64,000 bases of DNA from NCBI GenBank assembly GCA_039881145.1, contig JAYKKI010000006.1:15197001-15261000 (forward strand), written 5' to 3'. This document shows positions 2,590 to 58,236 of the stretch, one piece after another (position 1 is the stretch's first letter; each line of letters starts with the position of its first letter). The notes below the pieces were generated by a model. That model was not told the DNA's origin. It did no database searches and saw nothing but the letters and a program-made list of their open reading frames with translations. Made by a program: the position numbers and the translations under genes. The stretch comes from Druceiella hillmani. Its lineage: Eukaryota > Arthropoda > Insecta > Lepidoptera > Hepialidae.

Positions 2590-2960
2590 TTGAAAAAAAT
2601 TCAAAAATTGATTGAAAAATAAGCCAGTTGTAGGCTTTTAAATTTGAAGATACGGATAGAGTTGGGTATATCCCTGTCTCTTTTCCTCTCGTAGAATATA
2701 ATGTGCAATATTAAAAATGACTTCACAACACAGTATTGCCGTCCTTCTCTAAAGGTTAAATTTAAACTTTTATAACTCGGTCAATTTTTAAGATTATTAA
2801 AAAAAATTTTCACTCTTCATCAGCTCGTACCTTGAAATTATGATTAATGAAATAAAAAAAATTTAGTCAAATACCCAATTGCTAATTTGGGCATATGAGA
2901 GCAGAGGTTAAACATTTTATAAATTTGATACTTGAACAAACATTTTGATACCATTTTGTT
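2590..2960. repeat. Dispersed repeat, copy 1 (CTCGTAGAATATAAT family)
   Basis: Shares the core CTCGTAGAATATAATGTGC, and then TTTAAACTTTTATAACTCGG and a TTGAAATTATGATTA block, with the stretch at 33170-33420; the core also occurs at about 3608. It is a non-coding family of unknown class; ends are not clear. Confidence 0.5.
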
Positions 2961-3234
2961 CATTTTACTTTCTAAAAATACTGCTGCTAATTAGTTAATT
3001 AGAGGAAGCACTGACATACCACGGGAAAAACATTTAAAAAAAGTTAAAAACAACTTCTTTTTAAAATCGTGATATGTGCTCATTGCCCATAAGACTCTTT
3101 CTGTTGACCAGTTACAGTTTACTTATGGTAACAAAAAGCACGGAATCATGCTTGTCCTTGACTTTTTGCATTTATATCACTTGCCTTCGTTTCTAGCTTT
3201 ATGGCTTTTTCGTTTCTATTTTTATTAAAAACAG

Positions 3235-3494
3235 TCACAATTAAATGAAACTACGTGATGTAGTATTATTTCTACATTCTTTAATTTCTTTACCACGACC
3301 TAGGTTTCGTTGTATTACATCTTCAGGTGGGATATTAGCAAAGATCTTTGCTAATATCCCACCTGAAGATGTTGTAATACAACGAAACCTAGGTCGTGGT
3401 AAAGAAATTAAAGATAGTAGAAATAATACTACATCACGTAGTTTCATTTAATTGCGAATAATAAATTTCTACAAAATTAACGCCAAATATATTC
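3235..3494. mobile_element. Foldback element, copy 1
   Basis: A long hairpin: a left arm starting TCACAATTAAATGAAAC and a right arm ending GTTTCATTTAATTG pair over roughly 100 bp with very few mismatches around a centre at about 3344 (AAGATCTT). A 3' tail follows that is present in other copies and ends CCAAATATATTC at 3494. Because the DNA is palindromic, both strands carry an almost identical 68-codon open frame; I take this as a by-product, not a gene. No flanking direct duplication was seen at this copy. It lies about 230 bp upstream of the first exon in the window. Confidence 0.85.
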
Positions 3495-3499
3495 AATAT

Positions 3500-3700
3500 T
3501 GGAAAAATTATAAAAATTAATTAAAAAATGTACGAGTCAAGAGCTTCTGAATTTAATGGCCCTAGCATTAAATTCAAATAGTGGGGATATGTCACCTTTC
3601 CCCATTCGCTCTCGTAGAATATAATGAGCGTTATTAAAAATGAGTGCACAGTTTAGTATAACTGTCCTAGTATAAACTTTACAAAAAATAGCTTTTACAC
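3500..3700. repeat. Dispersed repeat, copy 2 (CTCGTAGAATATAAT family)
   Basis: Contains CTCTCGTAGAATATAATGAG then TTATTAAAAATGAGTGCACA, matching the copies at 2590-2960 and 33040-33420. It directly adjoins the 3' tail of the foldback element at 3494 and ends close to the acceptor of the first exon. Confidence 0.5.
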
Positions 3701-3721
3701 TTAAAATTCTAATTGTTTCAG

Positions 3722-3846
3722 AAAACAATACTACTTGTGCCATTGGTTGGCATAGATGTTCTAATGGTCGCTGTATCAACCCCAGCTGGATATGCAACGC
3801 GGAGCGTGATTGTGAAGATGGAAGCGATGAAAAGAATTGTCAGAAT
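3722..3846 (+). CDS. VgR: VgR-like exon 1 of window: LDLa module
   Basis: Acceptor TTTCAG before 3722; donor GTATGT after 3846. Reads in with phase 1 and out with phase 0. Encodes one complete LDLa module (residues 1-42) with six cysteines and the calcium-site motif [10 protein letters not shown]. It belongs to ligand-binding cluster I; the phase-1 entry implies at least one exon further upstream. Confidence 0.85.
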
Positions 3847-4155
3847 GTATGTTACTCTACGTTTCATAAATGAATATCTGACCAAGAAGTTTAAAAAGTC
3901 TCTCACACGTTCTCACAAAATCAAATCACAGATTATAATGTGTTTTATGTACCTCCCATTATAATGAAAAAAAAGATTAGTTAACATTTTTACCTAAAAG
4001 GAGGTTAAAAAAAAGAATATTTCAGCTATAGTTTAAGGAATATTTTATATAAAAAATATTAAGGAACCAAAAAAACGTTCTTTTTCTATTAAATATTTCT
4101 TATATTCTCTTAGTATACAATTACTGTAAGCAAACATTGATTATTGTGAATCATG

Positions 4156-4225
<70 letters not shown>

Positions 4226-7200
4226 ATAGCCATGTTTTTATTTACAATTGTCAACGATTAAAACTTATATTTACATATTTCCATGCAGAAAACATGCACT
4301 GGGTTTTTATGTAAGAATGGTCAATGTGTGGATCGCACTTGGCGCTGTGACGCTGGATATGATTGTGATGATGCCAGTGATGAAGAAGGGTGTAGTAAGT
4401 TTATTTTTTTTTATTTTGATTCTAATGGTAATAATTTTTTTTTTGTATTTATTTATTTCTTGAAAACCCCATACCCAACTTACAGTATTACCCAAATCGT
4501 TGTGCATGTAGAACATATAACAAAGAGTTATAAAACAATGGCAAATAGGACAATACACTCACAGAGAAATACCATACAATTGAAAAACAAATACACAGTG
4601 ATTTGGATGAATATCATTTAGCAATCAGTCGTGAACTACTAAGCAACTCTATGACTCCATTTCTGAAACGATCAATGGAGAAGAAAAAAATATCTAGACC
4701 GGGCACATCTCGCAACACTGCATTGAGTGCACGAGAAACAGGCGAATGCTATAGAATATTCGTACGTGCTCTAAAGAGGTAAAATAAACAAACGGAAATA
4801 ATGTAATTATGTAAATAAGTCAGAAGATTTATTACATAATTACTTTAATTTATCCTCTGATGAATAATTATGGAAATAAGACAGAGGATAAATTAAAAGA
4901 AAAAAAAACCATAAATTTAAAATTTTTTTAAATTCTTTCATTAAGAGAAGATGATTAAAAACTAAAGCTGCTACATCTCTTTAATCCTTCCTTTGATGTT
5001 TTACTTCTAAAATTATTGTCTCCTCCAAATTCCTTAAATCATTTGTAAACTCAGAACCACATATTTTAAAAGAATATGATTTATAGTTACTCAATATATT
5101 TAAAAAAAATAATAATAATGAAAGTTAATGTAAAGGAGGAATGTTCAAATTTAAAAGAAAATTTAATATTAAAAGTGTTATCCTAAGACAACAGCAAGGT
5201 TAGATATTTTAAAACTAATTGTGTGACGTGAAATAAACTAGTGTTCATGGTTTTAAAAGGCTAATTTTAAGAAAGGTTTTTGTTTGAATTTCAGAAATAT
5301 CCACAGTACTGCGGAATTTTTAATCCTTTAAATTAATTTTGTTATTGATAAACGTAATGAGATGGAGCAAGCTAAGTTGCACATTCAAGTATCCTTTCAG
5401 TTGTATGAGGGTTCCTATATTATTAATTTCTTTAGATGTTATAAAAAAATCTATATTATTCAAATCTTATTAAGGATAAGAGAACTTTTTAATTGCTTCA
5501 TTTATAGTTCTTCTTTGAAGTTGTCTTCCCTAGTGAGAAAATACGATGGTGCATTGACAAGTTTACAGTCTCGCACAGAACTATTATTAATATTCATATT
5601 GATCTAATTATATTCACCAATTCTTTAGTTGTCAATATGCAAAGTTTCATTATAGTGTTGTTTTTGGTTTTGACTTTATAGCGATTAATCGGTGATGGGT
5701 GATGAATTTTTTGAATGTAATTACAATTGGAACATCACATTGTTATTAAATATCTATTGACAAAAGGGTTAATACCAAAGATCGATGAAGATATGGTGAT
5801 GACGCTAGAAGAATCTGCTCTGTCATAAAAAGTTGTTAAAATGCAGTCAGCTGAATTTATAAGTGGTCGGCAGGGAATTAAAGATGACCTTCGTACTGGA
5901 CAGCTGTTAGTAGTGGCTACTGGAAAAACGATGGATAATCTGCAATTTGGTCATGGGAGATCGCAGATTGAAAATGATAGATATCTGACATATAGATGTC
6001 TCTTATGAGTGAACTGAAAATATTATTTAAATAAGGGATTTTGAAAATATTAAAAAAGGGATTTTCTAAGGTGTTTGCGAGATGGGTGATTAGAACAAAG
6101 ATGGTGAAGAAAGATTTGAAAACATTTATTTTTTAAAATCTAAATTATATTTAAAAGTAAGGAATATTAATGAAAAGTTTATATTGTGTTACATTATATC
6201 AATCCTTATTAGAAAATAATATTTGCCATAAATGATATTACACAAGACTTGATTGACCTTCATAGTGCTGAATGGGCTGTAATGAAACAGCCGAAATGCT
6301 CAAACCTCTATTTCTTTAGGTTTAACAGCTGAATACGATAGAGTTTTGTGAATAGGTTCTCGAAAAAAAAGAACCTTTGCCAGTATTTATCTCATTAGAC
6401 GAATTTGATGTTATAAAAGCTGTCCGTCAATCGACGGAACACAATTTGGAAACGTTTGTTTAGTTTTAGCTATGTTTTCATCTAGAGAACAATTGAATTT
6501 TTGCAATAAAATTAGACGCAATGTGATGGCACAAACCTGAATATACTATTTTTAGAGCTGCGTAGCTGAAAAGGAAAAGGGAATTCTCATAAAATCACTC
6601 ACATGTCTGTTCATCCTTCAGTCACAGCCAGCTTTCGTAAGAAACGCTTGGCGTAGATATTTAAAATTTGGCATAGTAATAAAAATATAGCTCCAATAAT
6701 AAAACATATACCTGATTATTGCTTAATAAAATAAAAGTCAAAATATTAATTTGGAAATTTTGGGGCTGGGGATGAACAAAGTAATAATTTTTTTTTAAAT
6801 TCCATGTATGGTGTAGGGTATTGTTCAGTTTGGTGTTCCTTCCACTCAAACGTAAATGTAACCCATTCACGATTTTGTGTAACTGTTTGGAGTAATTTAA
6901 AGCTGTTTTACAAGAATTTTGGTACAGTTTTGTGACTTATAAAACTTAGATCCCCCACTATATACCCAGAGTGAAAACAGCAGCAAAGATATAAAGAAAT
7001 CCAGGGGCACCAGTGTCAAGGAAGACCGAAGTGATTTTGTCGGCAAATAAAACAATAATGGCATCAGTTTTCTGGGACTTGAAAGGTGTCATTATGGTAG
7101 ATTATCTACCAAAGGATACCAATATAAACTCCATTTACTATGGCACACTTTATGTCGATTGTATGAATAGATAATGAAAAAACAGAGAGGAAAGTGAATA

Positions 7201-10200: not shown

Positions 10201-13200
10201 TGTCACACCCTGCTCAGTTAACAAATATTACAACTTCAGATTTAAAAATTCATATGGAAGAAGTCTTAAAATTTTATGAATCAGAGGAGATTAGATCAAA
10301 AGCTGAGCTGTGGCGCATTTTTTGGATACAAACAAGACGGAGAATTTTGAAACTTTCAAGATAACAGAAGTGATTCAACTCGTAGAATGTTTCTATCTAA
10401 AGGTTTAAAGCATCACAAATTTTATTAGTAATACTCTACAGCTATTCTACAGCTACTATTACAATGACATTAGTACTCTTAAACGCATAAAAACTTGGCT
10501 GAGATCAACAATGATTGAAGACAGACCGTAAACGGACTTCGTATGCTGAGTGTACACAGAAAACTTGTCAATAGCGTGGGCGATTCTTTCACGACACACA
10601 TCATAAACTGCTTTTCTGAAAAGCTACAAAAATTACTTTATAAATAAACATTTAAACTCTTAACTAATAAATGCACACTTTTTTAATTTATGTTCAGTTT
10701 TTTTTACTCTTTTTTCTTCTAGTTAAAAAGTAGAGATTATTTACTCAGTGCTCCTAATGTTATCCCGTTTCCTAACCTATCGAGTCCTACTTCCTAAACC
10801 TGGGGATTTGGCAAAGATGCTGGTTTCTAGATGGAGCGACTGTCATCAGATCCCCACAACCCATATGCGAAATCAGGCTTTTTTCAGGTTATGTACACAC
10901 ACGTCTTTTAAAATATAATTTCATGGAAGTGCAGGCTTCCTCATGATGTTTTCCTTCACTACCATGCAACGTACAAGTGGTAATTAGAAATCTGAACATA
11001 AATTCAATAAAACAAATTTAGTAGAAAAGGCCCTGAATTTACACCTGCAACCTTTTGGTTACAGGCTGACTGACTATCCACTAGGCTATCGTTTGTCTCA
11101 TGTTGAATTATTTAGAGCGACTGCCATCAGATCGCCACAACCCATACCCAAAAGAAATTCCTGATTTGATGTTATTACAGAGTGCAGAGTGTTACAGAAT
11201 ACGGCTGGACTGTATTGCCAGAAAGAGGAAAAAAAATGGGGAAATAAATATAAATAGGAAGGGAAACATGGAGATTGAGAACAGGTTTGGAGGAACTAGA
11301 TAGAGAATGGAAGCAAACAAGTTTATAGAAAATGTTACATATTCTGTCTTAGAATAGAATAAAGTAAAGTAGTTGTTAAATGCATATATGGGTGATTAAA
11401 AAGTCCCCATTTCTTCTTTTGTAACTTGAAATACCTATAATGTATTAAAACTTGTTTATTAATTGCTTGATATATAAATATAAAGTTTTGTACTAAGAAA
11501 ATATTTGCATTAGACATAATTTCATTGTATAATGAAATATTAATGTGATGCTGATTTTGTAGCTAACAACACCTGTGTAAACTCACCATGCTCACATGGA
11601 TGTGCTATCACACCGACTGGCTTGTACTGTCCATGCATGGGAGCCGGCTACCGCCATGTGACCAATACGACCTGTGTGGATGTGGATGAATGTGCCGAGG
11701 GAACAGATCACTGCTCGCAACGTTGCGTCAATGGTCCTGGCTATTATCTGTGCGAGTGCGTTGAAGGTTTTAAGCTGACTAATGATCATCATGGATGCAA
11801 CGCTACTGGTGAGTAAATCATTGACACTGTTTAGTGGTAATAAGTAATAAGAATGATTTAATTATTAAGTACGAAAAAATGACGGGTCACTTTTTTCAGT
11901 TGAATTAATAACTTGTCTCCTTTTTTACGCTGAAAATGGTTTGCGTGGTTATTGTAATCACGTTATTTGGGCATTGCTAGTTGAAACAAGAACTTGAATC
12001 TTGGCATTTAGAGAATGAGGTACGGATACCTGTGACATGAGTTATAGATAGCTGGAAAAATGTTTAGTTAGATTTTATTAATTTTTCTGAAAAAACAAAT
12101 GACTTTTCACGAAAAAACAAATGACTTTACAGCATCAGAGGCTTTGGCACTGATTCAGTACACAGAGCAATTTGAATTCATACTTCAGTGGTGCCTTGAT
12201 ATGATATATTGTTTCAGATTAACATTGTAAGAGAAGCTATGCATTCTGAAACTGTGAATTTACCAATGCATCGTAAATTCACAGTTTCAGAATGCATAGC
12301 TTCTCACGGATTTATTGCTCTGCTCTAATCACAGCTAACATTATATTTTCTTAAGCTGGGTTAAATCCTGTTTTGAAATCAGTCCTACTCCGAAGAAAAA
12401 AAAGCTTATTAGAGTATGACGCACAACCTAGGCTTCGTTGTATTACAACATCTTTAGGTGAGATGACCTGATCCACCTGAAGATGTAATACATCGAAACC
12501 TAGGTTGTGGTAAAGAATTTAAAGAAGTAGAAATAATACTACATCACATAGTTTCATTTAATTGTGAATGGTGAAACATGTGACGTACCAGGTTGTAAAT
12601 TGATTAAGGAACTTTTGAGTCAGCAAAGTTTCGCCTGGTTGTATATTGGTAAAGGAACAGAATAAGTACAAAAATTAGTGGCAGGTAATTTTGTACAAAA
12701 TAAGTGGCACGATATTTTATAGTATATGCAGACAGAGTAGTACATGCATTTCGAGTCTTGCTAACCATGCCTGTAACTGTCGCCAAAGGGGAACAAACTT
12801 TTTTTAAAATGTATTTAGTTTTTGGTTGAAAATTTCAATAATCCTTATCATGTTTCACCTTTATATTCCAAATACTAGGGAAATTAAAAAAATTATACTT
12901 TGATTTTTTATAAACTTTAATGTATTCATGGAGTACAAATATTTTCCCAAAGCAACTGAATCAAAGCATTTCGAAATATGTCTTTTTTAATTCTTGTATA
13001 ATTTTAATGACTCATGTGTCAATGTAAAAAAGGCACTTTGACTTGGATTTTTTGGAATAATATTATAATAATCGACAGCATGTCATTAAAGAGGTGAAAG
13101 TATCCCCTTCAAAATGCTTTATATGTTTTTAATCAATTAAAAGTTTTTTTCAGTAATTTTACTTTGAAATACATGTTAAAAACAATCTTTTCTTAGTAAC

Positions 13201-14655
13201 TTTATTACAGTATTGTGGAAAGTAGCGGAATATTCAATGTTTACATGTTTTTTTAAAGTAATAATATAAAAAAAAACCTGACAATTTCAAGTTGTTGCAA
13301 TTTTTTCTTCCTTCGTGTCTACAGCTGTCAAATAATTGATTTAATTATAGTGTAAATTTCTTTTTTCTTTAACAAGAAAAACAATAGGTATTAAAAAAAT
13401 TTTAAATTGCTGTATCACTATAAAATATAATTGAATTTCAATTAATCATTTCAAATTTTCATCAATTTTCCGCTGCTCCGTGCTACATTGCAAATCAGTA
13501 TAAGATTACGTCATGGCAATACTACTATTTGTTCTTTCGCATAGTATATTCAGTGAACATAAAGGACTTAACATAAAACTTGGTTTGTTCTTTTGTGACA
13601 CAAATTTCCAATGAGCTTTAGCTTATTCAAATCTAATCTTTTAGTGTTATAATCATTTAAAAATTAAACGTATTTTTGAATTTATTGTTCTATTGTGGGG
13701 AAACCCCTGTGATGTAGGACCCAGAACTAACTGGTACATGCGTAGAGACAACATTATGTGTATATCAATTGTTTTGTAAGGATGATAAAAAGATTATCTT
13801 TTAGTTAGAAAAATGTATTAATTATCACCTAAACTTAATTCCAATTAAATAACGACACCAACATCTAAATCACATAAGAGATACTTTCATTGCACAGTAT
13901 ATATAATTCTTTGGTTAGATGGTTGTTATATTTAAATAAATTTTTGCTGGATTGCATCTTAATTGAAACGAAAAATATGTTTGGAATATATTCAGTTACT
14001 GGTATTTGTATAACAGTAACAGAACATTGAACTGCTGATTCATTTGTTTTACATTTTTGGTTCGTCAGTTGTTTGATTAAATTTCTAAGCACAATTTAAA
14101 GTTGGTAATAAACAAAATATCTTTTAATATTTAACCCATATTGTAAGTCAGCCTAACGGAACATTTTTAAACATTTAACCTAAATTGTGTGTCCCTAGTC
14201 CTAGGTCCAACACAAACTATCCTTTTGAAAAAGATTTTTTTGTGTAATTATTATATTTTGTGTGTTTTTCGTTTAAGCATGAAAATTAGGGTTCGATTCA
14301 CATCATGAAACCACTCTTGGTTCATACCAAATATTTAATATTATTTACATTAATGGTTCGCACTCTGCGAATAAATATTTAAAAATGATTTTTATATGAT
14401 CCTAACCATTTGCACATTGCTGCAAATGTTTAGGATCATATAAAAATCATTTTTAAAAATAAGAATATTTTAGTTTTAATCTGTCCATGACTTTATCGAA
14501 AGTAGTTTATTAAATTATATTTTTTTATTAATAATAAGAAGAGTTGTAGTAGTAATGGTAAATTCATTATTAACTAATTAATTAACTATTTTAATGTATT
14601 ATTTTTGCTCTTAGAAATTTAATAATATAGTGTGTGTGTCAAACCTTCCTTCCCA

Positions 14656-14716
<61 letters not shown>

Positions 14717-26700: not shown

Positions 26701-29700
26701 TACGATAATTAACAACGAAAGCCTTTAGAATCCCTAAAATAGAACCAATTAGCAAGTTTATAATTTATTTGTTGGCAACTCTTCTTTGGACGTTTCTTCC
26801 ACATCTTTTTTGAAGGCGGTCACCACTGCTTTGGCATCCAAGAATCATGTTTTTAGCAGTTTATCTTTTATTTTTGCAAATAAATAGAAATTGCATGGTA
26901 TGAGATCGAAGCTGTATAGCGTTTGTCCAATAATTTCTGTACCTTCTCTAGTCAAAAATCTAGTCAAAATTCAGTTATTCATTTAGCTGAGTGCACAGGG
27001 GCATTGTCATGATGAAATACAATTCTGCTACGAGGGAATTGCTATTGAATTTTTCTAAAGCACAATTGCTACAACTGCTGGTATACCAGTCTGCAGTCAC
27101 TGTTTTTTTTAATTTTTGATAACAATAGTTTCTTAACAGCCTATCCATCTGAAGAACGAGGAGACCATAATTTTCCTGCTCTTCATCTTTTTTCATTTTT
27201 GTAGAAAACCATTCAGAGGAAACAATTGCTTAGTAAACCCACTAGAGTAGACTGCCTCCCAGTTTTGGGTTCGTAAGAGTTCATACAGCTTTCGTCATTT
27301 GCGACAATTTTGGATACAAATTAGAGTGACATCAATCATATTTTTTTTTAATTTTGCCACAATATAAATATATATAAAGCAGTGATAATATTTGTACTTT
27401 AGTTAACTTTTGTCAGCTTATTAGTTTCTAAATTTAATTCAATACATTAAAATCCTGTAATGTCTTTATTAATATTGGACGTTGTGTTTTTCCTTTATTA
27501 CTTACTAATGGAACTCATTTCTGACTAGGTTAATGTACTTGGTAAAAAAGACCTATGACGGGGATATTCACATCGATAGCATGAGCATGGATGGAAAAGG
27601 AGATAGGAGGCATCTTATTGAAGAAGGACTTAAAGGTTTGAGCTTAATTCTTAAGGTCTTATTAATAAACAGGGTTTAGCGTGAACGTAACTTTACACAG
27701 AGGTTAATCGCAGTATATATTAAAATTAATTTTAATAAACACAATGTAAAAAGACATTACTTTAATACACGGTTAGTCTCAGAGTAAAATTTAATCCAAG
27801 GATGGATTAAGTTTATCCTTGGCATAATCTAAAAAAGTTTTACTTTGACGTGAGTTGTTGACTTAAATAATATCAACGGAGACAATTATTTCGATGATAT
27901 AAGATTAACACAAGATGTAAATGATATTGAGAACCAACGGATTAGGTGAACGAAATGCCATTAAGCAAATAAAATTTTATAAATATCATCAGAGCCCTAT
28001 CGGAAGCTTGAAGAAAAGCAAATTCGGGCAGAATATTGCTATTTATATAAAGGATTTAATAAAAAACGATTCAGTTCATGAAACAATGCAAGGATTGGTA
28101 AATATTTTACTTCTATTATACTTTTGCATGTTTCGTTTTCAATGTATGATTCATATTAATAGGAATTTTTTTCCCGGCATGGACTTTAACCTGTAAAGAT
28201 TAAAGATGATCAGAGACTTATCCGGCATGAGTCGGCACTGCTTTTACATTCAAATACCAAAAATGAGCAGCTACGTTTCTCAATTCTATATAAGAAGAAA
28301 GGGTATATAATGGCTCATTGAATATTCCAGTAAATTATGTGTTATACATGTAAATAAACATACATATAAATATATTGTAGAAATATTCTGTTATTTGGTT
28401 GTAATTTTAAAAATACCTAATGATGATATACTACATTTGAGTACTTTTTATTCTAACTATACAGGTAGATCACAATTATTAATCACCTATTAATATCCCC
28501 TTAGGGGGTTTGCAAAGCAAATCTAGTGATTATGGATATTGAATATATTTGGCGTTAATTTTGTAGATATTCATTATTCACAATTAAATGAAACTATGTG
28601 ATGTAGTATTATTTCTACTTTCTTTAAGTTCTTTACCACAACCTAGGTTTGGTTGTATTACAACACCTTCAGGTGGGCTGTTAGCAAATATATATATAAT
28701 GGCTCATTCTTTGCTAACAGCCCTCATGAAGATGTTGTAACACAACGAAACCTAGGTTGTGGTAAAGAACTTAAAGAAAGTAGAAATAATACTACATCAC
28801 GTAGTTTAATTTAATTGTGGATTATGGATATTTTAGCTTGATGGAGAGGAAGCATTCATAATATTTTTACGTTCAATGAGAGCATTAAAAATGAATTTAA
28901 ATCTGAAGAATTTAAGGGAAAAATTACTTAGAGGTCACATTTTAAAAGGGAATAGAGCAGAGCGCATTGTTTACAGGGAAGTTTTACCACAAACCTAGAA
29001 AATACAAAATTACATAGTGTTGACATTACTTTGTAACATTGGATTGTCAACACATTTTACGTAATATGAAAGAAGAAAATATTGGAATAGCTGAAATGGA
29101 TGTTAACTCTGCTACAAATGATAATAATGTAAAGAATTTATTGAATGTAATGTATGGTATTTATTGCAGATAATTTTCAAAATAAATATTTTTTGTTTTT
29201 TTTTTGGATTTTTTTAAATTAAATAAATCAAATGATTTATATAATTTATTAAGTATTAATTAATTTAAATTGTAAGTTTTCAAATTCTGATTCGATTACT
29301 TTTTTATACTCTATTTTCTCTTTTAATCTCTACCCATTTTATTATTTCATTTTCAATTTTCATTTCTATCGAGGGCTCCTCCTCCACTGCATCCATACCT
29401 GTTTTATGCTCACTGTCTTTTAAGAACTTAAATGACTCGAAATTATTATTGTTGCGTAATTAAATTCCTTTAAAAGTTTAAGAAATTGTTTAGTACAATC
29501 ATAGCATACAGCTGTGAAATACTTTTTAGTGTGTACTTTCATTAATTTTTAAAGTTATTTTTTTCTTTTCCATTAGTAATTAAAAAATGTTCTATATAAC
29601 TGGTTATACAGGCCAGTTGTTGTTATTTTTACACGAAGTTTACGAAGTTTATTCAACAAAAATTAGTTTTATTTTCAACTTCATTTTTTTCGTTATCCAG

Positions 29701-32700
29701 TAGGTGATTTTCTTTATTTGAATTATACTTATATTTATATGATTTTTTCCTATACATTGGATAAATTTATCTTTATCGACCATACAAAATTAACCCATAA
29801 AGAATTATGATGAAGACAATTTTTTGATTCGGCAATTAATACGAAATAGAAGTAAAAGACGACATTGTGCTCATCCTTACCAAGTGTATCAAGTGTTGGT
29901 AATTTTAAAATTGCTAAAGAAGTAATAAATTATGGAACATAAAATTATTACTGGACCAAGTTTAAAGGAACAAAGTGCACATTATAGAGAAACTTATTTG
30001 ATAGTAAAATAGTACGTAGCTTGGTAATTAAAGACTATTGAACAATGTTGATCGATATTGTCACAGCCGCAACAGTTATGTTGTAAAACACATGTGGTTG
30101 GAAGGTTATCTGATCTATTACAATAAAATATGTGCATGGCGTTAACCACTTAGAAGTGAGTACGATTCCCTTGTCCCCTCAAATTTTGATACTATTTGGT
30201 TCATAGTCAATTTGTTTAATTACTCTTCCAGTTGTTATTAGGTCCATGTATACATCCCATGTACTATTCTTTTTACTTTTTTTACCTGATCGATAATCAT
30301 CACTATTACTTTGCAAAATATTTGTACATTTTAATTAAAACTTAACTTTTCTTTCTCATTCTAATTTATTTTGATTCACTTTTCATTAATTTTTAAGCTA
30401 AAATGTAAAATGTTATACCGCCAATTGAAACTTTGAAGACTGCCAGTAGTGCCAAATTCATTTTTTTTTGACAATATATAATGAAATACTCCCAATTCAA
30501 AATTATTATGTTAGTGATTACATCTGGGTTGCCATTATTCATGGCTAAAGTGAGGTGTAACAAATGTTAGTTCATCGCTAACCTGTATATTAATAATGTT
30601 TTTAAAATTAAATTAAAGCTTTAGTAATCTGAAATAAAGAAAGAGGTACTCCAGTAAAAGTATAAATGCAAGTGTCATGAATCCATTATTAATTAAAGTT
30701 TAATACAGTTTTATTTTCAAAAAGAAGAAGGAGCCGTTAAAGGTGTTAAAATTTTGAACATTAAGGATAAGTAAGAAAACGGGAGATATGTATAATTAGT
30801 GCCATAACTTTGTTCTAACTTTCAGATACCCTTGCTATTGTATAAATATATTACTGAGAATAATATTCATTTCATTTTATTACATATACAGAAATATTTG
30901 CATTATTTAACCTAATAGAATAACATCAATTTAATTTATTACCCTCACTAAAATACGTGTAAATTGTATAACTTTCGAAAGTATTATAAAATCTACACCG
31001 CTCCCTTATAATAAACTCACTAATGTAAGCAGTGGGAAAACCCACACAAACCCAGCTTCAGCTATTGTTTTTGTAATATGTAAATGCTGTTGGATGTTCC
31101 TAAGAGTCAATTTTTGCCAATAGGTCACCTGAAGATGTTGTAATACAACGAAACCTAGGTCGTGATAAAGAACTTAAAGAAAGTATAATAATACTACATC
31201 ACGTAGTTTCATTTAATAGTGAATAATGAATTTCTACAAAATTAACGCCAAATATATTCAATAGTCAGTTTATAATACAGAATTTTTTAAAAGATAGAAT
31301 AACTAAAATAACAGGGAAACTTTGAATGTATGCAGAATGTAAGCGTAATAATTTATACATAAAATGAACATTACCATAAGAAAAATCAATAGAAATAAGA
31401 ATATACATTACTTTTATAATAGAACCAAAAGGACATATGCACACACTGCTCCAAAGCAACTCAAACATTCTCACATTTTTTGGATTTTTAAAGGTTTTTA
31501 AGAATAATGAATCCTGCACCTGAATTACTCATAATATAAAATATGAAATTAATATGTCATAAAACATATGTTATAAAAGAACAAATTGCTACAATTTTCT
31601 ATCAATCAAATTATTTTAAAAATTATTATGAACTGTTATGTTTTAATTGTACATATACCTGTATATATTGTTCTTTAATTTGAATAGTTTGAAAATTCAA
31701 ATTTTTTGACGTTGGAGTGAATCTAGTGATACCCCCTTTATTAAAATCAATCTAACTGTTGAAGCTCTATTATGGTATAAAGGAACATACCTCCCTGTTA
31801 CCCCCTTTTGGGTTTTGCGGTAATCAGATAAAAAGAAGTATTATTAATATTGAACTATCTTTATTGCTGTGGTCACATAAATTAAAATATAGAAATGAAA
31901 AATATTTTTGATATATAAACTTCTTTCATTTAATTATAGTCATTATACAATTTATACAAAAAGAAAATCTGTAGTTAATAAAATTGTGATAAATAATTGT
32001 ATTTAGCTTACATTATATACATTCATTAAAGGTCCCAACGTCAACATTCGCTATGATCCGGAATCAGAGCTTGTGTTCATTGCTGATTCTGGATATCACA
32101 AGATAGAAAAGATGCATCGAGAAGGTATATATTTCTTTGTTCTAACACTAGTACGTGGAGTCATAGTCTTGATAACAACACACACACTTGGAATCACAGT
32201 TATGTTCATAAACAGTGATATTAATGGAACTATGTTTCTAAGTGTAGTGAAAACTGTTATATTTATATAAAAGTATTATGAAAAATACATTTATATAAGT
32301 ATGAAGAGACAAAACCAAATAATTGTAAAATGTTCTTTTTTATTCTCCTTCAGTTCTAAATGTTACCAGATGAAAATTGTCAATTTTCAATGTTTTATGC
32401 TCTTTCACAGTATAATTGATTAATATATATAATTTTGAATGTAGAAATATATTATTTTAGTATTATAATCTAATTACACCATTAGGGTCGGGCCATATGG
32501 GTTATCGCCAGCTGAAGACAGGTGTGAGGAGCATGACCGTTGCTGGTACCGATGTGATCTGGACCAATGAGGATGACAAGTACATATACTGGGCCAACAA
32601 GATGGAGAATGGAAACAGTTACAAGAAGTTTTCTTTAGGTTAATGAGAATATGTATATAATATTGAATAGCCTTAATAATTTTCTACTGTGGCACTAATG

Positions 32701-44700: not shown

Positions 44701-47700
44701 CCCGTACGTGTAATAAACTATATTGAACTTAATATATATGTAATAGAAGTCATTCTCGCTGATTGTTAGTCATAAACGGGGAATTCCCACAAGTCAGTAT
44801 AGACGTTGTTGCCAGTCGCTACAAAATATCATTCAAAGAAAAGGAATTCCCCAATCGGTCCGAATTTGTAGTTGCGATAAAAATATAAAATGGTTCAAAT
44901 ATTTACAAAATGTTTTTATTATGTATTGTTAAATTTTGCCGCCCCCTAAAAAGTGCCGCCCGGGGCGGGCCGCCCCTGCTGCCCCCACTACGCTACGCCA
45001 CTGGTACAGATATTGCTTTAAAGTCATCTCTCGACTCTCTTTAAAATAATACAGCATCACATCACATATGTTAGAAAATATCCTTATACTTCATTAATTT
45101 TAGCCTTTAATAATAAAACCTAGAGTAAAATATTTTTACACCTTTGGATATCGCCTATTCTTTGTTCATGAATTTTTGAACTTAATGATCTGCACATAAA
45201 ACCTACGAATGTTTGAACTTAATGATCTGCCAATAAAACCATGCGGCTAATGATTTATTTTCTAACTAGTTTTACCCTCTTTAGAAAGAATTATTAAGTT
45301 AATTGTAAGAAGCATAATATGACAAGCTTGTTAGACGTAATGTTCAACAGGTTCCAAGCAATCATGAAAGACATGATAGACAGCATGATGAATTAGATGA
45401 TCAAACTAATCTCATCACTAGCTCCGCTGAGGGACTGAATATCCATATCATCACCTGGAACGCCAACAGGTTGACTGACATACAGCAAGTGCTTGAATTG
45501 TTCATGAATAATGAGAATATTGATGTTGCCTTGATATCAGAAACAAGACTTACACACATACAATTTCATAAATACACAATCTATAGGACCGACCACCCCT
45601 CCGGTAACTCTCATTGCGGGACTGCTGTAACATTAAAAACAATTTCAAACATTATTTCCTTGAGCCTTACAGAACAGAAAAAATCCAAGCAACTTCGATC
45701 AAAACACAAAGAAAGAGTACTGAGACAACAATTGCTGCAACTTACTGCCCACGACGACACTCAATTCGGGCTGATAAATTCAAGTTTTTAACCAACTGGG
45801 TTCCGTATTTATCTGTAGAGGAGACTGGAACTCCAAACATACTTATCGGGGATCAAGACTGATCAACCCAAGGGGCAGACAGCTATATAAAGCAACACTA
45901 GACCTCAATCTGGAATACATTTCACACGGAGAGCCAACATACTACAGATCAGAATAATATACCAGATCTGTTAGATTTCTATATAACAAAGAATCTTAGG
46001 CATAACTACTTAAAAATTGAGAAATGTGAGGATCTGTCATCAGATCATACTCCAGTCATTTTAAATTTATTCAAACAAGTCATCCCCCTTGAGCCACATT
46101 CCAATATTCACAACAAAAATACAAACTGGGACCTTTATAGAGAAATTATCTCAAGTAATATAGATAATTATCTTAAGAATTAAGAAGATCTTCTGACTAA
46201 CTGAAAAGTTCTACTGTACAATACACTTGACAGCTACTGCCTCTACACTTAAAAATAGAAAAACCAAGACCGGATAAAAGGAATTTCCAAAAAACATAAT
46301 TGAGAAGGTCTGCGAACGACACAAATTAAGAAGAGAATGGCATAGAACTAGATATCCCTCTGACAAAACTACGTTTAACAGAGCAACAGAAGAACTGAAA
46401 GACATGACCAAAGAGTATGGGAACCTCTGCCTACAAAGTCACCAGGCTCAACTCACCCCAAATAAGGATACTAATCACTCACTATGGTGAGTAACCAAGA
46501 AACTAAAGTGACTCAAAAACCACATCCCGCCTTTAGAACAACAGAATAGAGGATGGGCTAGATCTGATACTGAGAAAGCAACTACATTTACAAAATGTCT
46601 TCACACTTTTGAATTGTATTGACCTCAATAACGATGATGAAATAATAGTTTACCTACAGTCACCAAATCAGTTATGCTTTCCTCTAAAGACAGAAAGTCT
46701 CAGAGAAATAACTTGAGAGATTAAAGTCCTACCACCCAAGAAAGCACCTGGTTATGATTTGCTAGATTCTGTACTGCTAAGCAACCTTCCAAAGAAAAGC
46801 ATAATATTTTTCGTAATACTCTTTAATGAATGTCTGAGACTCTCCCACTACCCATTCCAATGGAAACTTGCTAAAGTTATCTTGATAAACCTGGCAAATA
46901 GTCAAACAAAGTTTCATCCTACAGACCAATTAGTCTCCCTTTGATTGGCAAACTTTTTGAAAAAGTTATCCTGAACAGAATGCGTCCTGATACTATTCTT
47001 CCTGGGCTCCAACTTGAATTCAGACAAAAACAATGCACGATTGAGTAGGTACATAGGTTAACAGATACTATTAGCCTCACCCTCACATTTTGCTAATGTA
47101 CTTGCTTATATTTTTTTCACATAGGTTAATTCCAGAGTGCTTTTACTTATAATTAGACTCTAAGAATCTCTGCAAAATTAGCTAAACAAACAAGAATCAG
47201 TGGGTAAAATATGTTAAGACAATTTATTACCTAACTCTTCAAAATATTTTTTCGGCCTTGTGTACTCTCCAAATCATTTCTAGTTTTTTAATTAGATTCT
47301 TATTGTTAAATAGGCTGTTTGCTAGTTTTCGATTAAGAAATTTCGTTCTTCTTTGTGCGAATTAGTGTAATTTTTATGTACACAATATTTTTTAATAATG
47401 CACAAGAGATTTTAAACGGTATCTCTTACTTGGTTGTCTCTCAATCTGTCTGTCACTGCTCTCTAACTTCCAAATTATAAATGCCATGTGCAAAAAAATT
47501 ATCATTTTCATAATTTTTTCTTACTTTTGCAAAATATATCTTTTATTTTATTTTGCTTTAAAAATTGTGACATTTTATTAAACTGACACATAACATTCAA
47601 TTTTTATAGGGGTTTTGTTTTCCAATCTTTGGTATCAAATCCTAATGAGACCAGAAAAAACTAAATAAAAATCCTATCGATTGCTGAATTCATTATCAAA

Positions 47701-50700
47701 AGTATCTTATTACAGATGAGTTATGTACAAAAAATCAATTCCTATGTGCCAACAACCGCACTTGCATCGACTTCAGACTAGTCTGTGATGGCACGATACA
47801 TTGTCCGGACCGCTCCGATGAGATGGTCTGCGAGCACCATACCTGCAGTGACCAATTCTTTCAGTTAGTATTATCAATCATCATACCTGCATGCCTGACA
47901 AGATACACAGTGCTTTTCACATCTCTAATTCAAATTTTTTTTCAGTTTTTATTATACCATTATGATTTATTGATTATATCTTCATCTAATACAGTTCACT
48001 TTGATCTCTACCAAGAAATACATTTTTTGTCATTTGTAATAAAAGTTGAAGCAATTTCAAATTTACAAAATTTAGAATCACTGGTTAAAGGAAAGTAAAA
48101 TACAATTTTTTAAATATTTTATTAATATTTGTTTTAATTACCAAAAGATGCAGAGTTATTGTTTGTTTTGTAATTAATTAGGGATCTTAAAAAATTCATT
48201 TTTATAGGTCTTTACTATTATGTACATGCTGGAATGGCAAAAAGTTTCCAGACTGAAAAAATGCAAGTCATATTAAAAAAATAAAAGGTTTTTAATTTTA
48301 TTACAAAAAAATATTCTACATGCCAATGACGAGTATCAAAGTTTTTTTATCAAAGAAACCTTCCTTGTAAAATATAACTTTTTTGATTAAATGTGGACTT
48401 CTTTTAAGAAGTTTTTTCACAAATAGGATTTGAATATTATTTCACTAGGTATGAAATACCTCCGAAATATGTGCTAGAGGAATCATATTCACTTTATTTA
48501 TTTTCTGATTGAGTTCATCCATAACAGCTCAGTGGGATTAAGATCCGGGAGATTGAGAGGCCCTTTTATCAATTGGAAGTCTTTATCGTATGCACGATAA
48601 TTAATATAGAGTTCGGTGATGGGTTTGGAATCATTTAAAGGTCAACCCATGACCGATCAAAAGGAATAGTATGTTTTGTCAGTATATAATGATAGCATTT
48701 TTTGTCAAGAATTTCCTTAACTCTGTAAATATCTCCTACATCAAGAAAAACATCTCCATACCATACTTAGTTAACAGTTGATGTTAAATAATCAAGATGA
48801 TATATTTCTGAAGATAAATTCTGTGCTTTGCCTGAACAACATAGATTCATCAGTCCACAGTACACATTTCCAATTATCAGCTGTTCGTTGTTTATCATTT
48901 TCAGCCCACTTTAGTTTTTTTCATCGACTTCCACATTCCAAAAGCAGTTTATTCACAGAAACTCTAGCCCAAAGACGAGCTTTACAAAAAAATAGTTAAA
49001 TTCAGATTCGCTCATTATTGCTCACTGAACAGCAATTTTTTTTCCGGGCAGTAAGCCCCCTGTCCATTTTATGTAAAACAAATCTTGGCCGATCCTTAAA
49101 AATAGAGTCCTCCCACTACGAGAATACAAGGCTTCAAGCTATCAGCATTATCTTGGTTACAAACATATTGTAAAGCCTTCATTATGAAGGGAAGGCTTCA
49201 CAATATGTTACATAGCAGAACTAATTCACGTTTTTCTAAGTTCAGAGACATTTTGTCTTAAAAGAAAAAGTATATTTTTAAAAAATTAACATAAATTTAA
49301 TAAACCATGGTGATTTCATTAGTTTTCTTTCCTCGTCCTTATTTTAAACGATGAAGAAATAACAGAAAGAAATATCTTATTATATAACTTTCAGTTACAT
49401 AGAAATATGTGATAATACTAGCAACAATTTGTCATATATATAGTTTGCTGCACACATAAACATAACGACTGATAGGTCCCAGTACAAAGTGTACCCGTCC
49501 ATAATTGTTGACCATGAGAAAATGCAAATGCATACGCCATACTACATGTCTGTTACCATAGGTACTTTGTTTATATTTTTATCATAAAACCATTTGTAAT
49601 AATTAGTCGTCTGAAAACTTTGCACCACCAGTTTATAATTACATTCGTAATGAGAACAATACTCGACGCCTTAGTACAATTTGGCTGGAATAGAAGTTCT
49701 TCTCTGTGTTTCTAGGTTGTAGTTCCTACAATATTGATGTATTGGTTAAGGGGCTCAAATTTGCTATTCCCTTCCTAAACCATTACTATTTTCTATTTAC
49801 ATTGCTAATGTTTCACAGGTGCTTGACTGGCAATTGCATACCAAAACCCTGGGAGTGTGACGGTGACATTGACTGTATTGATTCTTCAGACGAGCATGAT
49901 AAATGTCGTAAGTACACATATTTTGGATTAGTATTTCGGTTAATAAATTTTTTCTTTCCAATGTTATATTGCTTCTCTCTATCACTGCTCTCTGGGGGAA
50001 ATTAGAGTAAAACCTCTTACCAATTTTGTGAACTGGAAGAAGATTGTTTTCTGTCTTACTGTTTGTCAGTTCAGTCCAGGTAGATAGGGGTAAAATAAAA
50101 GAATCTTAATCTCTGTTCCAATTTGTATAGTGCTGTCCCAACATTGAGTAATGAACTAAAGCCGTAATACACAAAATAAACACGGTTAAGTGCACTGTAC
50201 ACTTTTTTATATTGCTGTTTCAGAAATAAAAAAAATTTTACTTTTCTGTAAGTTTCTAACCAATATGAAATGAATTGTACTTATTATAAAAATATTTCCA
50301 TAAATTTTGTGTCGCATAGCACGCAAGGTCTGCCCAGCGGGTATGTTCCACTGTTTATCGAATGTTTGCGTGGAGCAATCACGACGCTGTGATGCTGTCG
50401 ACGACTGCGGTGATAACAGTGACGAGCAAGGCTGTCCCAAGCCTCAACATACCGTGAGACTTTTAGTTATAATACCTGATTGATTCACAATTGTATGTGT
50501 ATTTAAATTTTTTTCATGTTTGGTTTGTATAGTTTAAGGCCCCGTTACCACAATATGGCAGAATATGTTCTTTTTTACATAATGAAAATATCAAAAATCT
50601 TCTTAATAATGTATGCGATGTAAATGGTTGTAATATTAATATTTAGCAAATTTCTTCATCTATCACCTCTCACAGCTACTTTTTGTATTTGTCTCTTAGA

Positions 50701-53700
50701 ATAGCAAAGGTATGATAAACCACCCAAATTAAAGTTACAATAAATCTATATTCAAAGATGTAAATATATATGGATTTATTTAATCTTTAATATAATCTTG
50801 GTAACATTAATTGTAGAAATTACAAATTTGGATCTTACCACCAATAATGAAATTTTAAAAACCCACAATTCTCACAAAAAAATTCCCTACAATAGATCAT
50901 CCGAAATTGTCAATAAAAGTAAATTCTCAAATTACAGCCAATCGATTGGTCACAGTAGGTTGTTGACTGAATATGTTCTAGGCGCTTTGGCGTACAAAAT
51001 ATTTCTGGATACCTTAAAATCTTGACAATTTTTTTTATATTTTCTAATGATATTGGAAGTGATTCAGGTGGGATGGACAATTGTGATCAACGGGATGCCC
51101 AATTCTGGAAAGAAAGAATAGAGCCAAAATTTGTAAACTATTACAAAGATCGTTTTAATTATATTTTAGATTTTTTTATAATTTCGATCAAAATTTTATT
51201 TATTTCATTATGTTTTTTATTTAATATGTTACTATGAGATATATACAAATTTGGCTGTTACAGTACCCAAAAACTATAGAAATCGATTATAAATATATTT
51301 AAATTGATATATTTACAATCGAGCTACCTAAAAACTATAGAAATAAATTGTAAATATATTTAAATTTATATATTTACAATTGAGTTATGGTTACTTGCAT
51401 AACTTTTACAGCTTTATAATATTACCTATCAGCTATAATTTGCTGTATCACCACTAAACTATATGCTTTTATTAATTACACGTAATGCAAAATACAATTA
51501 TAAAATATCATGATTTTCCACATGCGTAAAATCACTTACTTACAGTATTGAAATTTGAAAGATTATTTTATGGTGGAATGTTACATGCTCTAAATATTTT
51601 ATCTTTGTCACTGAATGTACTGTTGTACATTGAACTTTGTGTCTTTGTCGGTCCACTTTAGTATTGGCTATGCATTTAGCAACTTGCGGTACGAGAATAC
51701 CTAAAAAAATGGTGAAGAAGCCTTGAATTATATGATATCCATAATTGAAAAGCGGACACAGATCTAAAAATTAATTTTTATGGATCATCTACCTATATGG
51801 ATATTCAGCCCGTAAACCATGTAACTTGTGATGCAAACTTAAATCTCTCATGTAAAAATCATTAACGAAAAATAATTAATACAAAGTTTCAAGATATTTT
51901 CATTCATATTTTTTTAATCTGCACTGCGTCACAAGAACTTGGGCTTCCTCAAATTAAGTTACACTAAATCAAAATCGGTAACGGGGCCTTAAAGAAATTT
52001 TATTGTGAGGTTAGTGTGAAAAAAATTAACAATTCATTAAAATTTCATTCTGGTCTTGAAGTTTAAAATTTAATTTTTAGGTTAAAGTCTCCACTATATT
52101 TATATTTCACTACTCACAATTAAATAAAACTACGTGATGTAGTAAAGATAGATCTTTGCTAATAGCGCACCTAAAGATGTTGTAATACAATGAAACCTAG
52201 TTTGTGGTAAAGTACTTAAAGATAGTAGAAATAATACTACATCACATAGTTTCATTTAATTATGAATAATGAATTTCTACAAAATTAACGCCAAATATAT
52301 TTAATATTTCACTACGCACTTAAGCTGCTTCATATTACTATTGAAATACTAAACTAATTCTTATGACATTATTAGTAGACATTATACAGTACTAATTAAT
52401 GACAATTTAATAATTTAATCAAGATCTATTATTTTGTTTGTTAATTGCTAATAAATAATAACAAAATTTTTGGAATTTACAGCTTGAATGCAAGGACGAT
52501 GAATACAGCTGCCCAACAGATACTAGTGTATGTCTTCCATATACATCACGGTGCGTAATGATAATGAAAACTCTTTATACCTTTACTGCGTAATTTTTAT
52601 CTTGCAGAAAAGTAATTTTAGGTATCCACTCTCCTCATTAACCCGTAGATTGCATTATCCTCATTAACCCGTAAAAGTGTCCTTGTAACTTTATACACTC
52701 GACATTTCACAAAAACAAAATAGATGATGTAGTTTTTTTCATCAACTTGGTCACAATAAACTTGTCCCACTCTTCACTCTTCATTGTTTAGTGTTGTATA
52801 TCTTATAACTTAACAGATGCAATGGTGTAGCGGACTGTCCAGGTGCAACAGATGAACTCGACTGTGTAGACCTAAGTAGTGGATGCAATGACCAGGAGTT
52901 CCCATGTGGAAATGGGCGTTGTCTGCCACGCGTGTGGCTCTGTGATGGTGCCACCGATTGCTCTGATGGCAGTGATGAGAATCCAGAAATGTGTCATGAG
53001 AGTGCGTCTTGGACTTCATACTATTTAGAAGTCTTAATTTTTATCTCTATACCTCATGACTTACTAATCGAAAAGTATATATTATTGAGGTCCAAAATTT
53101 TTCAGCATACTCACCTTGTAAAATCATTTAGAAAATTGAAAATCACATTATGCATTGAAAAGAAAATCAATATATGAGTTACAGAATTAGCTTTTCAGAT
53201 GGATTAAAACTACCTCAGGCTGGAAAGTTTTGGACACTATTAATATATCACTGTAGCTACATATAGGATGATATAACAAATAATGTGATCACCAAGAATA
53301 AGTTTTAAGAAGGCACAAAGAAGTCTACTATGGACAATGATAGGTATCCTACCTATCATTGTCTATGTTGTTTAATTAAAATTTGCTCCTGTCTACATTA
53401 TTCAATGAAAATCTTCTGGTCTTTCTTAGTACGAAATTGAATTGTTGATAATTTTTTTGCTTGCATTCAAATATTTTGATGCAAAATTCCTAAATATATA
53501 ATTAAGTATAGTACTAGAAATTAATTTAAAAAACTTTATTAAAATCATTATATTATTCACAATTAAATGAAACTATGTAATGTAGTATTATTTCTACTTT
53601 CTTTAATTTCGTTAACAACAACCTAGGTTTCGTTGTATTACAACATCTTCAGGTGGGATATTAGCAAAGATCTTCTTTCTAATATCCCACCTGAAGATGT

Positions 53701-56700
53701 TGTAATACAACTAAACCTAGGTCGTGGTAAAGAAATTAAAGAAAGTAGAAATAATACTACATCACGTAGTTTCATTTAATTGTGAATAATGAATTTCTAC
53801 AAAACTAACGCCAAATATATTCAATCATTATATTATCTTTTTTTGTTAATAAATTCAAGTCTGTAATAAAGGAAATAAATGTTTGTTTATAGAAAACAAA
53901 ACAATCACACAGCACATTCCAACGTCAGAGCTGTGCACAAATGGGTATACATGTGATAGTGGGGAATGTCTTGATTATCTCTACGTCTGTAATGGGCTGC
54001 CTAACTGCTACGATGGTAGCGATGAGAACGGATTGTGTAGTAAGTAATATTTGGACACTTCTAAAAATAGTTACGAAATTTTTATACTTACTTTTATGTA
54101 TGTATCTCCTCATAACAAATATACGGATCTACCACAATCAGATGTCGAACGTCTCAGTGTGGTAGTGTTAAATTATGTAGTGTTGCTAACAGTATAGTCA
54201 TTAATTGAAATGGACAAAGAATTATCGGAACAATAATTTTTCCGTGGTTTATATTTTCTAAATCAAGTAAAGAAATAAAACCTAATGTGTGTGATACAAA
54301 TATAATCACAATTGACCAATGGAGTAAGACTATGACATTACAATTGATTATACTTCTTTGGACAAATTGCACGAAAATCTACAAACAGCAATGAGAAACT
54401 CATTGTTACCGACATGGTTGAAGGCAGAGACGTGAGCGACGCTGTCATAGAAGCTGGACGGACCAGATATGAGTAATATTTGATAATCCGTTACATAATG
54501 TAATCTATACATATATCCGTTACACAGCTTTGAGAATAGGAACCTATGGCGAAATGTCACCAAAGAGAAGATGTTATCAAGAGGAAGACACTGTCCTCAA
54601 CAGAGAAGGACTGACTCCAGAAGAAGAATTTATTCTCCTACCAATTCCAAAATAATTTACCGCGGTCCCAATACCTGTGATATATACATATTGCTGCCTA
54701 GCTTTACATAATATTGAAAATAGTATTCAAAAAAGCCTAAAATCTTAAATTCCATACAGTGCGTAGCATTCCAAACATGTTATCACATGTTTTGTCTAAT
54801 TATACTGTTTAGTAATAATATTGGGATTAAAGGAAGTATGTTTGTTACACAACCATTGTTATTATTCAAATTATAAAGAAAAGAGAAAATAGCGAACAAA
54901 GATTGTATATTAAATTTTTGTTCAAATTCAACATTAACATTGGTATAATGTGTGTTGGTACTTGCCAACTTGTTGGTACTTTTCTAAAAACTTGTAATGG
55001 TAGATTTTCTCTCAAATTCTAGTAACAGGAACTAATTGCAACTTTCGCAGACAAGGGCTGTGACAATCGGAAGTGTACTTCCATCTGTAAGCCGACACCG
55101 CGTGGAGCAGTCTGCCTGTGCAGCGAGGGTTTTGAACTGGCCTCGGACGGCCGATCTTGTCGCGATGTCAATGAATGTGCTCGACATAACAGCCCTTGCT
55201 CACATGCGTGCCTCAACACCTATGGAAAATATATTTGTTCCTGTTACTGGGGATATGTCCTGAGGTTAGATGCTAATTTTACATTCAAATATTTATGAAT
55301 ATTGCTCACAATTAGGATGTTACTTTTTTATTAGAAGCAGGAAAAAATGTTTCCACATATCCAGTTGTACAGTTTCAGAATTTAAGTATTATTTAAAATA
55401 TAAACACCGAAAGATTCTATTACTTGTCATTAGATTAGTATTTACCATCCTTTGAAGTTGAACGTCTTTAAAAGCTATTATTCAAGTTGATACTAGTAGT
55501 AGGAGTATAAAATAAAGCACTCATTTGAGTCATCAGTTCACTGATGTTTGCTTGTGATTATTTAAGTATATATAGTCTAGATTATAGGACAGCTACTACC
55601 ATATGGGCTGTATACCATCTCAATTGCATTTTTATACTAAATACTAAATGTGAGGATACCACCAAAATGATTTATGTATATTGTAATAGCTTACACATAC
55701 ACAGTTTAACTATATTTATGTACTCTCTAATTGCTCTCCAATGCTAATGAAAATTAGATTTTGTATAAGCATTTTTCTTCTGTTACTTTTCTAGATCGGA
55801 TCATAAATCATGTAAAGCAGTAGGGGATCCATTGTCTATCCTGTATTCAGGAGATGGAGAGATTCGACGTCTCACTCGCCAACCCGGTCACGAGGTTATG
55901 AGTACTCTCAGAAATAGCGTTGACCGGAGCAAAGTAACCGGGCTTGGTTCTATTTATGCTAAACAAGTGCTTTACTACACAATTGAGGTTTGTACATTTT
56001 TACCATATTAAAGATTACTAAAATAGAACCAAAGATGATGAAACGCAGTACATATACAAACTGTGTATTCGTTCTGAATGTAAAATGTTTTTGGTGTATG
56101 AGAAAAAATCAAATCATTTTAAGATTGGCCTTCAAGTTTCGAAATTTATAAGTGTTCAATTTTTTTTTAAAGAGAAAGCCAAATTTTATTTTCTGCTTGT
56201 TTTTCAGAGATTATCTAGTTGAATTCTTAGCAGCTGCAATGTCTTGTTTCGTTTTATTGAGTACAATAGTTTCTTCTTCATTTTGGTTACTATTTGATGG
56301 ATGTATATAATCTAAATTCGTACGGTTTTGCTTTCTTTTACGCTTTCTCCCTTGATAATATTATAATGAACAATATATTACATTACCCATCATGCTAGTC
56401 ACACGTGGCTTGGTGAAGGAACGAGGGAGAGAGGAAGAGGACATTCATATACTATCCTGTGGCCCATTTTCCACCCCTCATTACAGAGATTTATTATCTT
56501 TACCAATTCATACTAGCTATTATGAATAACAACTAATACAGTTAGTATGGTTGGATCTAAGTAGATAAATAAATAATATCTGGAAAAGTAAGTAATTATG
56601 AAATTAACTGGACAATATGCGTTTTAATCACTCTGATTGTGATACATACATACACACGCAAATGTAATACACTGAGAAATATGTATATGGTTTCTGCAGA

Positions 56701-58188: not shown

Positions 58189-58236
58189 GAATTCTGAAAA
58201 AGTATGTAGATGAAACTACATACTATTTCAGAATTC
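58189..58236. repeat. Snap-back palindrome, 21-bp arms
   Basis: GAATTCTGAAAAAGTATGTA and onward (58189-58209) pairs with 58216-58236 at 20 of 21 positions, loop 6 nt. Confidence 0.88.

Follow-up and report, generated by a model that had tools for sequence, protein, structure and literature searches.

Short foldback repeats of the moth Druceiella hillmani as probable two-ended inserts of Penelope-like element RNA

A 64,000-nucleotide stretch of the Druceiella hillmani genome (Lepidoptera, Hepialidae; contig JAYKKI010000006.1, positions 15,197,001 to 15,261,000; hereafter the window) contains a short foldback repeat at six places, where an original prediction from the letters alone had described a family of hairpins with a one-sided 3' tail. 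All six places hold the repeat and the family is real. We put at roughly four in five the probability that these short repeats are inserts of about 152 nt of RNA from a Penelope-like element (PLE), made by priming from both ends of a broken target and joining of the two cDNAs. This stretch of element RNA, which comprises the right arm and the tail, is called unit M, with positions written M1 to M152.

According to this proposal, the endonuclease would cut both strands about 12 bp apart, and each new 3' end would start reverse transcription at one of two RNA sites, close to M152 or to M114, which lie 38 nt apart and enclose the tail. Each cDNA would run to the RNA 5' end, either the promoter start at M1 or a hammerhead cut at M54, or would stop early, and the two would then be joined with short filler that becomes the loop. 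One far and one near start would leave a one-sided tail, two far starts two tails, and two near starts none. Reverse transcription starting near the RNA 5' end would give pieces of 150 nt, as seen.

Results

Five matches to the tail core AATTAACGCCAAATATATTC, at three or fewer mismatches, lie in the window, against 0.03 expected, and in the host assembly (2.586 Gb, 181 contigs) the exact 19-base core is found at 45,582 places (22,709 + 22,873) and its reversed control at none. A search with copy 28541 returned 3141 candidates, of which 40 were scored; the 39 scored copies other than 28541, aligned with three window copies, gave a set of 42 that holds the copies most similar to the query and is biased towards full length. 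Their consensus arms pair perfectly, and mean divergence from the consensus is 3.6% outside the loop. The loops, 11 to 41 letters long including the flanking AAAG and TTTG, are different in all 42. A fixed hairpin RNA would not give this, and each insertion must therefore form a new loop.

The geometry of the inserts was read in a tail sample made up of the first 100 places in the position-ordered listing, which all fall on contig C1; the sample was unselected for structure, and its requirement for an exact tail favours young copies. Compared with unit M, 74 places were inverted (two of these rows, L142 and L143, belonging to opposite ends of a single double-tailed insert), 15 had a right piece only and 11 were long forms. 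A single cDNA with 5' truncation, as in the one-ended insertion of long or short interspersed nuclear elements (LINEs or SINEs), fits the 15 right-piece-only places, not the 74 inverted ones. The outer start of the left piece fell at M112-122 in 54 of the 74 inverted rows and at M100 or beyond in 67. Among these 67, the left piece reached at least 15 nt further inward in 21 and the right piece in 14, the two being equal in 32, and both pieces extended down to M10 or less in 22. Inner ends of left and right pieces were uncorrelated (Spearman 0.05, p 0.66). Since in many inserts each piece holds RNA sequence absent from the other, neither piece can have been copied from its partner. Tails stand on both sides in L044 and L142/L143, and on neither side in window copy 12422.

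In the original prediction, a self-folding hairpin RNA would undergo reverse transcription starting at its 3' tail, in the manner of a LINE or SINE, and the duplications and 3' tail do look LINE-like. However, truncation of such a template should cost the outer left end first, and it is this end that most rows keep, with inner sequence missing instead. With no two loops alike and arm ends independent of each other, the template is better described as one arm plus the tail, and we now think a fixed hairpin RNA very improbable. A stronger competitor is self-priming, in which one cDNA or antisense RNA folds back and copies its own arm, as the authors of a study excerpted here proposed for rotifer Penelope palindromes on an antisense template (PMC3846280). 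Near-perfect palindromes speak for it, as do the 32 of 67 rows with equal inner ends (22 of them with both at the RNA 5' end) and the seven of 74 in which the left piece is inner sequence only. Yet a self-primed arm cannot contain sequence absent from its template arm, as the rows with unequal reach would demand, nor does snapping back give any reason for a fixed outer left start. We consider self-priming unlikely as the general source of these inserts.

Target duplications were scored in 103 copies (64 sampled, 39 full) against the 99th percentile of mismatched partners, and 76 exceeded this threshold, with lengths of 9 to 19 bp and a median of 12. The direct duplications of 12-13 bp first noted in the window are visible in copies 28541, 52114 and 53556, but the genome-wide spread is wider. 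Between tail and duplication lie 0 to 10 bases, such as AATA or AATATTCAAC, which we read as further RNA template copied from a slightly variable start. The target site is symmetric: 48 of 76 have A two bases before the duplication, and 53 of 76 have T two bases after it. This is the pattern expected of a single enzyme making equivalent cuts in the two strands. A left cDNA start by ATT microhomology with the target was considered, ATT preceding CACAATT in 11 of 30 against 1.4 expected, but was rejected: of the independent 3' duplication copies, only 5 of 76 have ATT at their end.

A foldback DNA transposon, or one of the type of miniature inverted-repeat transposable elements, would supply the long inverted arms, but hardly duplications of variable length, a tail that is usually one-sided, unique loops or a linked gene with reverse transcriptase and GIY-YIG domains, and we give this explanation almost no weight. 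The earlier preference for target-primed reverse transcription over a DNA transposon thus holds, on the variable duplications, the one-sided tail and the lack of two fixed termini; among the host copies, fixed-length duplications with two complete inverted termini were not the rule. Two inserts had unusual tails. In L039 the last 21 tail bases (AAATTAACGCCAAATATATTC) follow the tail as several head-to-tail repeats, as if reverse transcription had slipped or restarted at the start site, and in the 5' flank of L014 another tail immediately precedes the foldback, one insert standing beside or inside another.

The two arms of an insert sometimes carry different subfamily bases. In the similarity-selected set of 42, three subfamily sites showed disagreement between the arms in 7, 6 and 6 copies, where mutation would predict 0.66, 0.58 and 0.86. 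The 73 inverted rows of the tail sample gave 5 against 0.68 at M65, an unclear 2 against 0.43 at M13 (P 0.07) and 0 against 0.40 at M15. In these rows both arms shared the same odd base in 16 cells and differed in it in 4, from which most events draw on RNA of a single source. These base patterns are no more than suggestive of two RNA templates in a single event.

The original prediction had suggested looking for a LINE that shares the tail; the long relative is instead a PLE. Copies L088 and L098 have about 1.3 kb in common up to the tail, with a GIY-YIG-like frame, and L151, which lies upstream of long form L115, has a 394-aa open frame (L151:2038-3222) with YVDD. This frame matches RVT_1 at E 2.6e-4 (21.2 bits; Pfam cut-off 29.6) and PF01541 (GIY-YIG) at E 5.9e-4 (20.5 bits, just under the 22.6 cut-off), and the motif SGIYKLKC..YIGQTGR can be read in it. 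Its protein has 266 homologs; among the best 120 listed many carry RVT_1 and several PF01541, and the named organisms among those listed are insects, at 50% identity or less. The best NCBIfam model, Drt3a, was far below cut-off, and the frame had no match among solved structures. Judged by sequence, the long form is a Penelope-like element with predicted reverse transcriptase and GIY-YIG domains in the same frame.

Both L095 and L098 have TATAAA 30 nt upstream of M1 (it is altered in the window copy), and M1 is for that reason probably the transcription start. The pseudo-long terminal repeats (pLTRs) of PLEs have a promoter-like TATA box and a tandem or inverted arrangement; the box and inverted pieces are seen here. 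The 38-nt tail reads ATG AAT TTC TAC AAA ATT AAC GCC AAA TAT ATT CAA and is probably the start of the PLE frame, as excerpts of two reports describe for other PLEs (PMC3846280, PMC11167929). The short copies have no promoter; they are probably products of the long element that cannot multiply further. The 5' parts of long copies L088 and L095 (oriented ~2700-3500) are in mutually opposite orientation; the long PLE may insert two-ended as well. In viral contigs, neither a 20-mer of the tail nor a 23-mer of the arm had a match, and no PLE protein was confirmed. A single match of the tail 20-mer in genome contigs (L001) extends over only 21 bases and looks like chance.

By manual reading, M17-M57 can be written as a hammerhead, with stem I CCAC/GUGG, core CUGAAGA with one additional U, stem II GUUGU/ACAAC, GAAA, a short stem III ACC/GGU and a predicted cut after C53. 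The long window copy has a paired change in stem I, UCAC/GUGA against the consensus. Rfam at its gathering threshold gave no match in the window; Hammerhead_3 scored 15.4 bits against a gathering score of 48.5 (E 0.83), and its alignment, at 31119-31159, is not the one read here. A viroid hammerhead is known with an extra U after A9; our literature search returned nothing on it.

If the RNA is cut after C53, both cDNAs should stop at M54. A genome-wide search for joins with both arms running outwards from M54 and 0 to 6 bases between them found 87 places in the host assembly, against 1 for the reversed control. Forty-four of the first 50 listed had no extension past M54 on either side, where 8% would be expected for smooth ends; one of the 44 (filler AGGTT) is perhaps a mutated extension, and 43 of 50 leads to the same verdict. 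At control position M66, only 3 of the first 50 of 63 joins were exact, in low-complexity sequence where perfectly exact ends would score only 24%, against 77% at M54, which weakens this control. Scoring covered the 50 listed of each and was made on the joins without regard to tails. In smaller samples the excess was weak: M54 accounted for 4 of 50 truncated ends, a peak as high arising anywhere in 11% of simulations, and for 4 of 60 in the tail sample.

The accumulation of joins at M54 has the look of a footprint left in vivo by a PLE hammerhead. Alternatively, RNA structure may stop the enzyme at this base, or another promoter may start transcription there, with no need for ribozyme cutting, and this more doubtful explanation of the pile-up deserves to be kept in view: the motif is unusual (A at position 7, extra U) and lies below the Rfam threshold, and the excerpted part of a lizard study records no RNA reads ending at the hammerhead cut (PMC11167929). 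Against such a stop, 44 of the first 50 joins listed end exactly on the base after the predicted cut, and do so in both arms.

Three window copies (3235-3494, 28541-28819 and 53556-53822) are near-perfect hairpins, the last folding at -150.8 kcal/mol (z -28); coordinates are collected in Table 1. The common design of hairpin and tail first described for all copies holds for these three, but 12422 has no tail, 52114 is asymmetric and 31124 lies inside a longer element. In 52114 the inner part of the left arm is missing and the outer end kept; in 12422 the left arm begins deep within the arm, and the aligner extends this copy to 12575, probably by chance. Copy 31124, previously taken for a 5' truncation, belongs to a long copy in which the same element runs on leftwards to about 30767, with about 490 bp alignable with L088, L095 and L098 and an approximate left boundary. 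No convincing target duplication was found for copy 3235 on inspection by eye. In each of the five tailed copies the bases after CCAAATATATTC/T are AAT, where the original prediction had AAT or AT.

Table 1. Copies of the repeat and associated features in the window.
Feature	Position	Strand	Details
Foldback copy	3235..3494	+	Left inverted piece 3235-3345 (M115-2); right piece and tail 3344-3494 (M2-152)
Tail-less foldback copy	12422..12567	+	Left piece 12422-12460 (M56-18); right piece 12473 (M17) to ~M115
13-bp target duplication, tail side of copy 28541	28528..28540		AATATCCATAATC on minus strand
Complete foldback copy with tail	28541..28819	-	
13-bp target duplication, second copy, other side of copy 28541	28820..28832		
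3' portion of long Penelope-like copy	30767..31259	+	M1 = 31109; tail end = 31259
Hammerhead-like motif	31125..31165	+	M17-57; predicted cut after 31161; manual reading of sequence and consensus
12-bp target duplication of copy 52114	52102..52113		ATATTTCACTAC
Asymmetric foldback copy	52114..52303	+	Short left piece 52114-52144 (to M85); full right piece 52152-52301 (M2-151)
12-bp target duplication of copy 52114, second copy	52304..52315		
13-bp target duplication of copy 53556	53543..53555		AATCATTATATTA
Complete foldback copy with tail	53556..53822	+	
13-bp target duplication of copy 53556, second copy	53823..53835		

Elsewhere in the window are short near-perfect palindromes of about 48-86 bp and differing sequence, at 12231-12305, 14375-14460, 17653-17732, 18373-18432, 20512-20634 (two adjacent), 39185-39233, 58189-58236 and 61402-61462; they are perhaps other palindromic elements or products of snap-back repair. 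A tandem array at 22915-23785 has 4.1 copies of a 210-bp unit (94% match). Exon-like frames resembling low-density lipoprotein (LDL)-receptor class A or epidermal growth factor (EGF)-like domains lie at 4262-4621, 11544-11816, 35722-36150, 47688-48098, 49694-50005, 52809-53177 and 55026-55298, Pfam having been run among them on 11544-11816 and 52809-53177 only, and probably belong to one LRP-like gene with repeats in its introns. Pfam also identified a hAT dimerisation domain at 42653-42994 (within 42653-43819, minus strand), an RVT_1 fragment at 38648-38944 and a Copia-type gag at 59920-60240 (within 59920-60590). By eye, 43277-43819 and 45318-46183 look like further hAT and non-LTR endonuclease pieces, with no Pfam match.

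Discussion

The anatomy of these inserts is of a known kind, that of Penelope-like elements. The original prediction knew of no named family, but inverted pLTRs with an optional one-sided tail had already been described for Penelope elements (PMC3846280). As excerpted, that report gives Pen2a and Pen3 of Adineta vaga inverted pLTRs, an optional one-sided 31-bp tail and duplications of 8-10 bp. Shared with the D. hillmani element are reverse transcriptase and GIY-YIG domains, a pLTR with a TATA-like box, head-to-head inverted pLTRs with palindromes and the optional tail, the inverted pLTR in A. vaga being 37 bp shorter than full pLTRs. Unlike the A. vaga elements so described, the inserts here are mostly of about 150 nt per arm, without a coding part, and number tens of thousands; their median duplication is 12 bp, and their end statistics favour two-ended priming.

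A biochemical counterpart exists in the Poseidon PLE of Anolis carolinensis (PAc). In the excerpted account, purified PAc cuts and extends both strands, prefers ATT and begins copying at two neighbouring internal sites, the stretch between which is the tail; the steps that follow are left unvalidated (PMC11167929). On our reading, the two systems share cutting of both strands with an AT-rich preference, two starts bounding a tail and a hammerhead or hammerhead-like motif near the start of the frame. The PAc work used protein in vitro without joined insertion products and did not see hammerhead-cut RNA used; in the present genome, joins accumulate where the cut is predicted. By analogy, the present inserts are what the PAc scheme would leave in a genome, a two-ended rule with tails on one side (the usual case), both or neither.

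Our search of the open-access literature found no paper on twin priming together with Penelope. In human LINE-1 twin priming, both target ends prime on the RNA to give an inverted 5' piece; this occurs in a minority of inserts, and the two cDNAs copy different parts of the RNA. Inversion here, unlike that of LINE-1, is found in 74 of 100 sampled places, and both cDNAs cover the same stretch. Retrozymes resemble the short inserts as short non-autonomous retroelements with a hammerhead (PMC4918200); they differ in that no tandem unit was seen in the copies examined here, and the machinery linked to these is a PLE.

Several observations weigh against our interpretation. Inner-only left pieces occur in seven of the 74 inverted rows (L054, L070, L094, L106, L125, L138 and L139), and for these a snap-back accounts as well or better. 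Fifteen of 100 tail places are without a left piece, and in 27 of 103 copies no duplication above threshold was found. Both domain matches in the L151 frame fall below the curated Pfam cut-offs, and the long form was pieced together from partial copies. In addition to reporting no RNA ends at the cut, the PAc study, as excerpted, finds no strand difference in start site and reports that in vitro the template was mainly unprocessed RNA (PMC11167929).

Beyond the short repeats, we lean towards a general model in which PLEs integrate by symmetric two-ended target priming. The two cuts would be equivalent, each 3' end would copy independently from one of two fixed starts, sometimes on two RNA molecules, and the cDNA ends would be joined, with inverted pLTRs as the normal product; the hammerhead would cut the RNA in vivo, and the cut RNA would serve as template. 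What looks new is the size of the short foldback population and the statistical case for two-ended priming over self-priming. The apparent in vivo hammerhead footprint in a PLE also looks new, no literature search having been aimed exactly at hammerhead footprints in insertions.

The route of Penelope elements into chromosomes was left open in the excerpted parts of both PLE studies (PMC3846280, PMC11167929). Tens of thousands of short inserts in D. hillmani keep both cDNA ends of each event, so that the mechanism can be read statistically, and two-ended priming would explain an old puzzle of PLE structure.

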